Below, in pieces: positions 33,717-37,992 of a stretch of DNA of 64,000 nt. The notes beneath the pieces were generated by a model. That model saw only the letters and a program-made list of their open reading frames with translations. It was not told where the DNA came from and ran no database searches. This stretch comes from Candidatus Ruminococcus avistercoris. Its GTDB lineage: Bacteria > Bacillota > Clostridia > Lachnospirales > Lachnospiraceae. The position numbers and the translations under genes were made by a program. Numbering within the stretch: position 1 is the stretch's first letter; every line of letters starts with the position of its first letter. Where the stretch lies: positions 1 through 64,000 of the forward strand of contig DWVJ01000008.1 of NCBI GenBank assembly GCA_019120315.1, written 5' to 3'.

Positions 33717-33979
33717 GCACAGAATGCAACAAAATGTTTCTTGCATCGGAAGCGGGCATATGATATGATTATACCACTCTACAACCGGGGTTTCCGGTGT
33801 CAGAAGGCCGTTCGGCCGACAAATTCCATGATAAACAATTAAAAACAGTCAGATGGACAGTCAGGATTGCACAGATCTGTGTGATTGTATAAAATGCAGT
33901 ATTTTTCGTTGCATTTGCAGCTCCTTTCTTGTATAATGAAAGCAAATCCAGGATGTGCATTTGACGGAAAGGAGAATGC

Positions 33980-35341
33980 ATGCGGGATAAAGATGTATTA
34001 ACGGCAGCTTATCTTAAGAACAACAGCCGCTTTGCGGATCTGCTCAATGGCTGGCTTTTTGGCGGCCGCCCGGTGGTCCGGCCGGATGATATCCAGGAGC
34101 TGGACAGCGCGGAAATCCGGATCCGCAGGGACCGGACGACAGGAGGCGTACGGACCGGGAAGCGGTACCGGGATGTGATCCGCCGGGTAGCCCTGGGGAT
34201 GCGGTTTGCGGTGATCTGCGTGGAAGAGCAGAGCGAGGTGGATTACACCATGCCCTTCCGGGTGATCGGCTACGACCTGGACCGCTATGAGCAGCAGCTT
34301 CGGATCCGCAGGCAGGAGCATCGCCAGCGGAAAGATTTAAAGGCGGAGGAATATCTGTCCGGGATCTCCCGGGAGGACCGGTTCCTGCCGGTAGTGACGC
34401 TGGTGCTCTATTTCGGGAAGCACTGGGACGGCCCTAGGAATCTGAAAGATCTGCTGGATCTGGAAGGGATGCTGCCGGAGGTACGGGAGCTTTTAGCAGA
34501 CTACCCGGTTCACGTGATTGAGGTGGGGAATTATCCTTACGCGGAAGCATTCCGGACGGATCTGAAGCTGGTGTTCGGTTTCGTGCAGAATGCGGACGAC
34601 AAGGAGAAGCTGCAGGCCTTTGCCAGGGCAGAAGAGGAAGCGCTGTCAGAACTGGCGGAGGACGCCTATGACCTGATCAGCGTGATGACCGGGACGGAGG
34701 AACTGGATCGAATCAAAAAAGAGAAGCAGGAGCGAAAGGGGAAGGTGAATATGTGCAAAGCGATCGATGATATGCTGGCGGATGCCAGAGAGGAAGGACG
34801 AGAGAGGGGGAGAAGTGAGATGATGAACGGCTTGCAGGAGATGATAGCGGACGCCAGAGAGGAAGGACGAGAGGCAGGGAGAAGTGAGACGATGAACGGC
34901 TTGCAGGAGATGATAGCGGACGCCAGAGAGGAAGGGCGAGAGGCAGGGAGAAGTGAGACGATGAACGGCTTGCAGGAGATGATAGCGGACGCCAGAGAAG
35001 AAGGACGAGAGGCAGGGAGAAGTGAGACGATGAACGGCTTGCAGGAGATGATAGCGGACGCCAGAGAGGAAGGGCGAGAGGCAGGGAGAAGTGAGACGAT
35101 GAACGGCTTGCAGGAAATGATAGCGGATGCCAGAGAGGAAGGGCGAGAGGCAGGGAGAAGTGAGACGATGAACGGTTTGCAGGAGATGATAACAGACGTC
35201 AGAGAGGAGGAGCGAAAGGAAACGATTCAAACTTTTGTTAACGATTATATTGAGGAAGGATTCTCGCGGGAAATACTCATTAAGAAGCTGCAAAAAATGT
35301 TTTCCCTGGATCAAAAAACCGCGCTGGAATATGTAAAGTGA
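33980..35341 (+). CDS. Rpn-family (PD-(D/E)XK, transposase_31-like) nuclease with repetitive C-terminus
   Basis: MRFAVICVEEQSEVDYTMPFRVIGYDLDRYEQQ, LPVVTLVLYFGKHWDGPRNLKDLLDL; C-terminal 23-aa tandem repeats. Confidence 0.8.
   Translation: MRDKDVLTAAYLKNNSRFADLLNGWLFGGRPVVRPDDIQELDSAEIRIRRDRTTGGVRTGKRYRDVIRRVALGMRFAVICVEEQSEVDYTMPFRVIGYDLDRYEQQLRIRRQEHRQRKDLKAEEYLSGISREDRFLPVVTLVLYFGKHWDGPRNLKDLLDLEGMLPEVRELLADYPVHVIEVGNYPYAEAFRTDLKLVFGFVQNADDKEKLQAFARAEEEALSELAEDAYDLISVMTGTEELDRIKKEKQERKGKVNMCKAIDDMLADAREEGRERGRSEMMNGLQEMIADAREEGREAGRSETMNGLQEMIADAREEGREAGRSETMNGLQEMIADAREEGREAGRSETMNGLQEMIADAREEGREAGRSETMNGLQEMIADAREEGREAGRSETMNGLQEMITDVREEERKETIQTFVNDYIEEGFSREILIKKLQKMFSLDQKTALEYVK
34772..35185 (+). 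repeat. 69-bp coding tandem repeat, six units plus a degenerate seventh
   Basis: Unit M(I/L)ADAREEGREAGRSETMNGLQE; units start at 34772, 34841, 34910, 34979, 35048 and 35117; near-identical at DNA level. Confidence 0.95.
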
Positions 35342-35532: not shown

Positions 35533-37992
35533 ATGACGGAATTATTGAAGGAGATAAAAACGTATTGGAGTACCCGCACAGAGGGATATTCTCAGGTAAA
35601 TCAAAAGGAATTGTCCGGCATGCAAAAAAAAGCATGGCTTTCGGTGCTGAAGGAACAGTTTCCCAGGAAAGCGAAGGAGGAACTGAAAGTCCTGGATGTG
35701 GGCTGCGGGCCCGGATTTTTCCCCATTATCTTGGCAGAGGCCGGGTATAACGTGACGGCGGTGGACTACACGGAGGAGATGCTGGAGAAAGCCCGGGAAA
35801 ATGCAGGGAATCTGACAGAAAAGATTACCTTCCAGCAGATGGATGGACAGAATCTGGAGTTTGCGGATGGAACCTTTGATGTGGTGATATCCCGGAATCT
35901 GACCTGGAATCTGGAGAAGCCGCAGAAAGCCTACAGCGAATGGCAGAGGGTACTCAAAGAGGGCGGCGTACTGCTGAATTTTGATGCCAACTGGTATGGC
36001 TATCTGTATGATGCAGAGAAAAAAAGACAGTACGAGCAGGATAGAAAAAACGTGGAGGAGAAGCATCTGGAAGATCATTATCTGTGTACGGATATTGACC
36101 GGATGGAAAAAATCGCACTTCAGATGCCTTTGTCAGGGATTACAAGACCTGCCTGGGATCTGCAGATTCTAAAAGAGCTGGATATGGAATCCGTGCAGGC
36201 GGATGAAGATGTCTGGAAATGTGTCTGGAGCGAAGAAGAGAAACTGAATTATGGTTCCACTCCCATGTTTATGGTCTGTGCCAGAAAGAAACGGACGGCA
36301 AATGGAACGTATCATCTGTTGAATCTGGATGTACAGCCGGGGGAACGGCTCAGCGGATATCTGGAACTGGCCGAAGGGAAATTCCGGCTGCCGGCAACGA
36401 TTCTCCACGGGGTGAAACCGGGAAAGACAGTGCTGGTTACGGCAGGCGTCCATGCCGGCGAATATGTGGGTATCCAGGCGGCGGTGGAATTGTCTGCTAT
36501 GCTGAAACCGGAGAAAATAGCGGGTACGGTGATCCTTGTTAAGGTAATCAATCGTCCGGCCTTTGAACATCGCAGCGGTAGCCTGGGATACGAAGATCAT
36601 AAGAATCTGAACCGGGTGTTTCCGGGAGATCCGAAAGGTACAGAGATGGAGCAGCTGGCCTGGGCCATCTCTCAGCAGCTGTATCCTGCGGCAGATTATC
36701 TGATCGATCTGCACAGCGGAGACGACTATGAAAGACTGACGCCCTATGTCTATTATGCAGGGATGGCTAAACCGGAGATATCGGACATTTCGCGGGAGAT
36801 GGCGCAGCAGGTGGACGTGCCCTATATGGTAAGGTCCAATGTGGCGTCCGGCGGTATGTATAACTATGCAGCATCCTGCGGTATTCCCGGTATACTGCTT
36901 GAACGGGGCGGCATGGGGCAGTGGACGGCAGAGGAAGTGTCCTCCACCTGCCGTGATGTGCGCAATATTCTCTGCCATCTGGGAATCTATGACAGTAAGA
37001 AAGATTACCGCACCTATTATCCGCTGGATGTGACAGACGTCTGTTACCAGATCGCCTGGCATACGGGCCTTTGGTATCCCTTTAAAAATCCAGGTGATAT
37101 GATTCAAAAAGGCGATATCCTGGGAGAAGTAAGAGATTACAACGGCAAAGTGATGGAAGTCTGCCGGGCGGAGAGCGACGGTGTGGTGCTGTACTGTACC
37201 GGTTCTTTGCAGGTACTTCAGGATGGACCGGTTATTGCCTACGGGCGGATCGTGAAAAATTACGACGACCGGAAGGTACGGATCACAAAATATTGGGGAA
37301 AACGAAGCGACAGCTTCCTGGACCAGAGGAGGAGGGAACTTCACAGTGCGCTGGCAGATCGCTGGCTTAGAGAAATCAGTGCGCAGATTCCTGCCGGAAG
37401 GAAACTGAACATTCTGGATGTGGGCTGCGGAGCCGGGTTCTTTTCCATTTTGCTGGCCGGTCTGGGACATCAGGTGACGGGAACGGATCTGACGCCTCAG
37501 ATGGTAGAAAGCGCGGAAAAGCTTGCCGGGGAAGAACAGGTTTCCTGTGAATTCCTGGTGATGGATGCGGAAAAGCTGGAGTTTGGGGATGATACCTTTG
37601 ATGTGGTGATTTCGCGGAATCTGACCTGGACGCTGCCTCACCCTCAGGAAGCTTACCGGGAATGGAAACGGGTATTGAAACCGGGCGGAATATTGCTGAA
37701 CTTTGATGCGGATTACGGGGCAGACGACTGTTCGGATACTTCCGGACTGCCGGGAGGACATGCACATAACAGACTGGGAAATGAGATGATGCGGGAGTGC
37801 GAAGAGATCAAACGTCTTCTGCCCATCAGTTCCCGTCAGCGGCCGGCCTGGGATCTTATGGCGCTTGGCGAAGAAGGTTTCCGGGAATTTTCCATTGATC
37901 TGGGAATCAGCAGCAGGGTTTACGTGGAAAAGGATGAATTCTATAATCCGGTTCCGCTGTTTATGCTGCGGGTTCAAAAGCCGGGAATGTAA
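35533..37992 (+). CDS. Methyltransferase-aspartoacylase/M14-type-methyltransferase triple fusion
   Basis: Two class I SAM motifs (VLDVGCGPGFFPIIL; ILDVGCGAGFFSILL) flank a succinylglutamate desuccinylase/aspartoacylase-like domain (GVHAGEYVG, DLHSGD, LLERGG). Confidence 0.9.
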   Translation: MTELLKEIKTYWSTRTEGYSQVNQKELSGMQKKAWLSVLKEQFPRKAKEELKVLDVGCGPGFFPIILAEAGYNVTAVDYTEEMLEKARENAGNLTEKITFQQMDGQNLEFADGTFDVVISRNLTWNLEKPQKAYSEWQRVLKEGGVLLNFDANWYGYLYDAEKKRQYEQDRKNVEEKHLEDHYLCTDIDRMEKIALQMPLSGITRPAWDLQILKELDMESVQADEDVWKCVWSEEEKLNYGSTPMFMVCARKKRTANGTYHLLNLDVQPGERLSGYLELAEGKFRLPATILHGVKPGKTVLVTAGVHAGEYVGIQAAVELSAMLKPEKIAGTVILVKVINRPAFEHRSGSLGYEDHKNLNRVFPGDPKGTEMEQLAWAISQQLYPAADYLIDLHSGDDYERLTPYVYYAGMAKPEISDISREMAQQVDVPYMVRSNVASGGMYNYAASCGIPGILLERGGMGQWTAEEVSSTCRDVRNILCHLGIYDSKKDYRTYYPLDVTDVCYQIAWHTGLWYPFKNPGDMIQKGDILGEVRDYNGKVMEVCRAESDGVVLYCTGSLQVLQDGPVIAYGRIVKNYDDRKVRITKYWGKRSDSFLDQRRRELHSALADRWLREISAQIPAGRKLNILDVGCGAGFFSILLAGLGHQVTGTDLTPQMVESAEKLAGEEQVSCEFLVMDAEKLEFGDDTFDVVISRNLTWTLPHPQEAYREWKRVLKPGGILLNFDADYGADDCSDTSGLPGGHAHNRLGNEMMRECEEIKRLLPISSRQRPAWDLMALGEEGFREFSIDLGISSRVYVEKDEFYNPVPLFMLRVQKPGM

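Follow-up and report, generated by a model that had tools for sequence, protein, structure and literature searches.

A predicted RpnL/RpnS gene-within-gene system with a conserved internal start in Candidatus Ruminococcus avistercoris

The rpn locus and its full-length gene

The stretch of DNA analyzed here (the window) is the first 64,000 nucleotides of contig DWVJ01000008.1 of Candidatus Ruminococcus avistercoris, and the gene of interest, rpnL, occupies positions 33980–35341 of its forward strand, where one open reading frame encodes a 453-aa nuclease of the Rpn type within the PD-(D/E)XK class. In a Pfam scan the nuclease part of this frame matches PF04754 (Transposase_31) at 21.0 bits, with a cut-off of 21. 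Its catalytic-type residues D65, E82, Q84 and R94 are near-invariant among 122 homologues and align with D63, E82, Q84 and R94 of Escherichia coli RpnA, a protein in which the substitutions D63A, E82A and Q84K led to the loss of all phenotypes (Kingston et al., 2017; PMC5350276). Judged by these residues, the nuclease domain of rpnL is intact.

A likely promoter, TTGCAT and TATAAT separated by 17 nt (33909–33937, forward strand), was recognized by aligning upstream regions, since TTGCA and TATAAT are identical in all 10 of the paralogues and relatives compared; a consensus promoter scan missed it because its −35 element matches the consensus at 3 of 6 positions. The Shine-Dalgarno (SD) sequence AAAGGAG follows at 33968–33974 on the same strand with an anti-SD duplex energy of −9.0 kcal/mol, and its AGGAG is kept in the paralogues.

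The neighbors of rpn in the window are amtB, a P-II protein gene, a methyltransferase fusion, FmdE and a transporter, all metabolic or transport genes, and no defense gene adjoins it. The fusion (35533–37992) is an 819-aa protein joining a methyltransferase, an AstE/AspA-type deacylase and a second methyltransferase, and together with the FmdE and ABC permease genes that follow it is possibly a cluster for the uptake of a metal or small molecule. In a relative from the same genus, DNA similarity to the window begins 110 bp past the rpn stop codon, and the amtB/P-II/rpn block is absent from that place. On mobile elements, phage records gave only distant matches of 25–32% identity, plasmids gave two of 30–34%, and two scans of viral contigs gave no relatives.

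The internal start at 34751 and its conservation

The first-pass annotation of this DNA had pointed to a second, in-frame start within the nuclease gene, and the geometry of that proposal is confirmed: ATG 34751 is codon 258 of the 453-aa frame, and the predicted internal gene rpnS (34751–35341, forward strand) would encode a 196-aa product beginning MCKAIDDML. The leader, CGAAAGGGGAAGGTGAAT-ATG, reads as first described, and it contains an extended SD region (34735–34747, forward strand) in which AAGGTG (34742–34747) ends 3 nt upstream of the ATG, with its AGG core 5 nt upstream, while the neighboring AAAGGGG (34735–34741) lies in the register that matches most relatives (7–10 nt). The duplex energy of −11.6 kcal/mol compares well with that of the gene's own start given above. 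The description of the product as a repeat region without the nuclease domain holds in part, as the repeats are present but do not make up the whole of it; it also has about 9 residues (MCKAIDDML) ahead of the repeats and about 40 non-repeat residues behind them. A scan of positions 34000–34750 for an internal promoter gave nothing.

Considered in isolation, the window site is unremarkable. Among synonymous recodings of the same amino acids, 18% equal or beat its SD (p = 0.18), so the site does not by itself prove selection; it is suggestive, and compatible with chance given its amino acids. For this reason we brought in homologues from 397 genomes of the same bacterial family, 113 of which hold a match at E ≤ 1e-20. 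The fetched loci yielded 125 distinct open reading frames, of which 122 were aligned and 121 have a residue at the column of M258.

At this column a start codon is found in 119 of the 121 homologues (111 ATG and 8 GTG, with TTA in the other 2), whereas other Met-rich columns of the alignment drift to Leu, Ile and other residues. The mean SD energy of the leaders at the internal start is −10.57. The genes' own starts average −9.47, and 912 other ATGs inside the nuclease part average −3.44. The mRNA around the internal start is less structured than in recoded versions (−3.3 vs. −4.8, sd 0.16).

The most direct alternative to an internal start is that the Met and its purine-rich leader belong to a conserved protein linker, rich in Lys, Glu and Gly, that merely resembles an SD. 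The leader does encode such residues, Cys-Lys-Ala follows the Met in most family members, and the window site is not significant by itself. The nucleotide-level comparisons nevertheless make this explanation extremely improbable. Synonymous recoding of the internal leaders strongly weakens the SD, to a mean of −8.19 (z −13 for the real SD), and the excess persists when similar sequences are removed, with z −10.9 for 88 representatives at ≤60% identity and an SD stronger than the recoded mean in 41 of 42 at ≤40% identity (p 2e-11). Where the homologues carry Val in place of the Met, the codon is GTG in 8 of 8 cases, though across these genes GTG accounts for 37% of Val codons (p about 3e-4). 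The spacing of the SD core is mostly 7, 8 or 10 nt, its codon phase varies, and the leaders encode residues as varied as EGG, KEE, EEE and GKE; because phases and amino acids differ in this way, it is the nucleotides of the SD that are kept. Control sites upstream of the internal start that are equally rich in Lys, Glu, Arg and Gly show no excess (z +0.3), and free-standing genes in relatives, described below, begin at this same Met with an SD of their own. Linker composition was therefore rejected as the sole explanation. On these sequence comparisons, conservation of the internal start and its SD far exceeds what chance or the amino acid sequence accounts for, and they are under selection at the nucleotide level.

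Purine-rich control sites downstream of the internal start behave in the opposite manner, with an SD weaker than expected from recoding (z +11), a pattern that would fit selection against spurious starts within the S region (the part of the gene downstream of the internal start).

The SD score was also applied to E. coli K-12 as a positive control, where the internal start takes first place in rpnA (M244), rpnC (M241) and rpnE (M244) and second place in rpnB (M244). When the proteins are aligned on the nuclease, M258 of the window gene lies no more than one residue from the E. coli internal start, which for RpnA M244 has been proved by mutation (Zhong et al., 2023; PMC10327210).

Repeats, further ATGs and relatives

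The first repeat unit begins 9 codons after M258, and the array as a whole is a 69-bp tandem repeat of 6.2 copies (34778–35208, forward strand; Tandem Repeats Finder, 95% matches) with the 23-aa unit ADAREEGREAGRSETMNGLQEMI. The window S region is the longest of the 121, at 196 aa compared with a median of 67 and a next longest of 114. A repeat period of 4, 8 or 12 is found in 53 of the 121 homologues, the window unit contains REEG-REAG, and paralogues on three other contigs of the same genome (C4, C20 and C10) have 19-aa units. The difference between the 23-aa and 19-aa units is four residues exactly, equal to one known Rpn repeat, so the larger units seem to have arisen when a block already containing the 4-aa repeat was duplicated.

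The protein ends in a C-terminal unit (residues 393–453; 35156–35338, forward strand) that AlphaFold2 models as a long helix followed by two short ones. The full-length model, with a mean pLDDT of 46.6, was of too low a quality to be used, and the tail alone is predicted with confidence (local pLDDT about 80–88 over residues 410–453). A Foldseek search with the tail model returned no significant match, a sequence search of solved structures returned only a designed helical protein (E 0.23), and a Pfam scan found no match in S to DUF4351 (PF14261), with which S is annotated in some species, though membership in the RpnL/RpnS kind does not depend on it.

The later in-frame Met codons, for which purine-rich leaders had also been claimed, do have them (34820–35170, forward strand): duplex energies are −11.1 at 34820 and −10.8 at 34823, and −9.1 at each of the five in-repeat ATGs (34892, 34961, 35030, 35099 and 35168). 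It is conceivable that the ATG in each repeat is used besides 34751, giving S forms with ever fewer repeats, and the range of −11.1 to −9.1 does match the gene's own start. Several points render this unlikely. The repeats are recent copies and hence amount to one observation, their SD excess over synonymous recoding is weak and not independently significant (z −1.4 to −1.8), and the sister unit in the paralogues on C4 and C20 scores only −5.9. In addition, SD strength is avoided family-wide at purine-rich sites downstream of the internal start, and an E. coli S whose repeat number differs fails to inhibit (PMC10327210). A bolder version, to which we give slightly less credence still, is that the 23-aa array is a multi-start antitoxin with an SD and an ATG in every repeat, whose S forms of different repeat number, together with the S-only arrays of relatives, would control one nuclease through a graded mixture of matched and mismatched partners.

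Returning to the single internal start at 34751, a number of relatives carry S apart from a working nuclease. A paralogue in the window's own genome (contig C35, 644–1526, minus strand) carries a deletion of about 62 nt in the nuclease together with a frameshift, while its internal SD, its MCKAIDDM start and its S frame are all intact. By eye, a T-box-like leader seems to follow downstream of this paralogue. In three further loci the nuclease is broken by a stop codon (L036), by a frameshift (L058) or by the absence of most of the domain (L063), and S and its SD are again intact; these cases come from assembled genomes, in which single breaks could be errors.

Free-standing S genes provide the complementary arrangement. 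At locus L028 (1050–1900, minus strand) two S-only frames lie behind a full-length gene. Both use the same Met as their start, they differ in repeat number, and around the stop codon in front of each lies an SD of its own; they may be regarded as putative antitoxin arrays beside one nuclease. Loci L023 and L123 each have one free-standing S gene behind the full-length gene, beginning at the same Met, and at L038 tandem S copies stand before it. An S-like frame was also noted at L138, and L067 goes together with L038 among the loci that have free-standing RpnS-like genes.

The S region changes more readily than the nuclease. In a relative from the same genus, tandem genes have nuclease DNA that is 99–100% identical and S regions that are 62–78% identical, as expected for a fast-changing part that sets specificity. 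In the window's own genome, the contigs carrying the paralogues on C20 and C4 break off at one common base, some 50 nt upstream of the internal ATG, and are identical to the window there. It is likely that this genome contains several genes whose nuclease ends are identical and whose S regions differ, and the window copy could for that reason be an assembly join.

A scan of more distant PF04754 relatives resolved few frames under a strict motif filter. Five more distant Rpn relatives (L153, L156, L159, L162 and L172) have a different junction, of the MLFDSFEAYDV type in three. A strong SD (−10.0 to −12.9) precedes an in-frame ATG in these loci. The pattern suggests that the internal start is general, with another type of S in these loci.

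The proposed toxin-antitoxin system and its known counterparts

Sequence and analogy together make it highly probable that the gene is an RpnL/RpnS toxin-antitoxin system of the gene-within-gene kind. The first-pass annotation had suggested that the logic of the E. coli Rpn proteins, a nuclease toxin with an in-frame C-terminal antitoxin made from an internal start, operates here, and this idea is supported by the start codons in 119 of 121 homologues, the selected SD, the matching catalytic residues, the alignment with the E. coli internal starts and the free-standing S genes. Full-length RpnL (453 aa) would act as a PD-(D/E)XK DNA endonuclease, and ribosomes would also start at ATG 34751, producing the nuclease-free C-terminal part as RpnS (196 aa). 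Because its helical repeat region and its C-terminal helices are also those of RpnL, RpnS may then pair with the tail of RpnL and would block cleavage until it is released, whereupon RpnL would cut DNA, probably during phage infection as a means of defense. As the same DNA encodes both proteins, a change in repeat number alters L and S together. Pairing, inhibition and a role in defense are inferred from work in E. coli (PMC10327210), and of the steps in this analogy the inhibitory role is the least tested. Weighing against the reading are the window site's compatibility with chance when judged by itself, the negative scan for an internal promoter, a tail that matched neither DUF4351 nor any solved structure, a 23-aa unit in place of the 4-aa repeat of known RpnS, and neighbors that belong to metabolism or transport.

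It is also important to consider that the internal start may be used to make an RpnS that is mainly a structural partner, an assembly or folding subunit of RpnL, rather than an inhibitor. The comparative evidence bears on the translation of S and not on its role, and internally translated subunits are known, as in Cas10d/Cas11d (cited in PMC10327210). We consider this quite unlikely, as the nearest system to have been studied has an S that inhibits L both in vivo and in vitro (PMC10327210), and the persistence of S beside a broken nuclease is unexplained by a pure subunit, although the breaks may be recent.

The toxin-antitoxin reading makes the window gene a well-supported further case of a kind of system already known from E. 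coli and Clostridioides difficile, with an unusual repeat. It is set apart by the 23-aa repeat unit, the very long S and the S-only gene arrays in relatives. The Rpn gene-within-gene system is extended from these two species to a large family of gut bacteria, and the nucleotide-level selection on the internal start could allow hundreds of antitoxin genes that are now missing to be annotated automatically. The relatives also offer clean natural cases for L/S co-evolution, namely the same nuclease with different S regions, a broken nuclease with an intact S, and S-only arrays.

The closest counterparts are RpnA, RpnB, RpnC and RpnE of E. coli (Kingston et al., 2017, PMC5350276; Zhong et al., 2023, PMC10327210), whose RpnL/RpnS genes-within-genes are those in which inhibition of L by S was demonstrated. 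The window gene resembles them in its nuclease domain with the equivalents of D63, E82, Q84 and R94, in the place of its in-frame internal start (M258 vs. M244 of RpnA), in the distance from the internal Met to the repeats (9 codons here, 8–20 residues there), in a highly variable S, and in the presence of free-standing S genes near some members (L023, L028, L038 and L123 here, rpnES/ypaA in E. coli; PMC10327210). It differs in that S begins MCKA(I/L) here and MTIAERL there, that the window S has 196 aa as opposed to about 48 and its repeat unit 23 aa as opposed to 4, and that the E. coli genes have an internal promoter while none was recognized here, nor a match to DUF4351. The known S fold (7TH0) is a three-helix unit whose long first helix dimerizes, and the AlphaFold2 model of the window tail has one long and two short helices, with no significant Foldseek match. 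The C. difficile rpn gene is alike in being a Gram-positive gene whose S, upon expression in E. coli, was shown to arise from an internal start (PMC10327210). More remotely, the Cas10d/Cas11d pair of the Synechocystis type I-D system also yields a second protein from an internal start in one gene, but it belongs to an unrelated family, and its small product is a cooperating subunit rather than an inhibitor.
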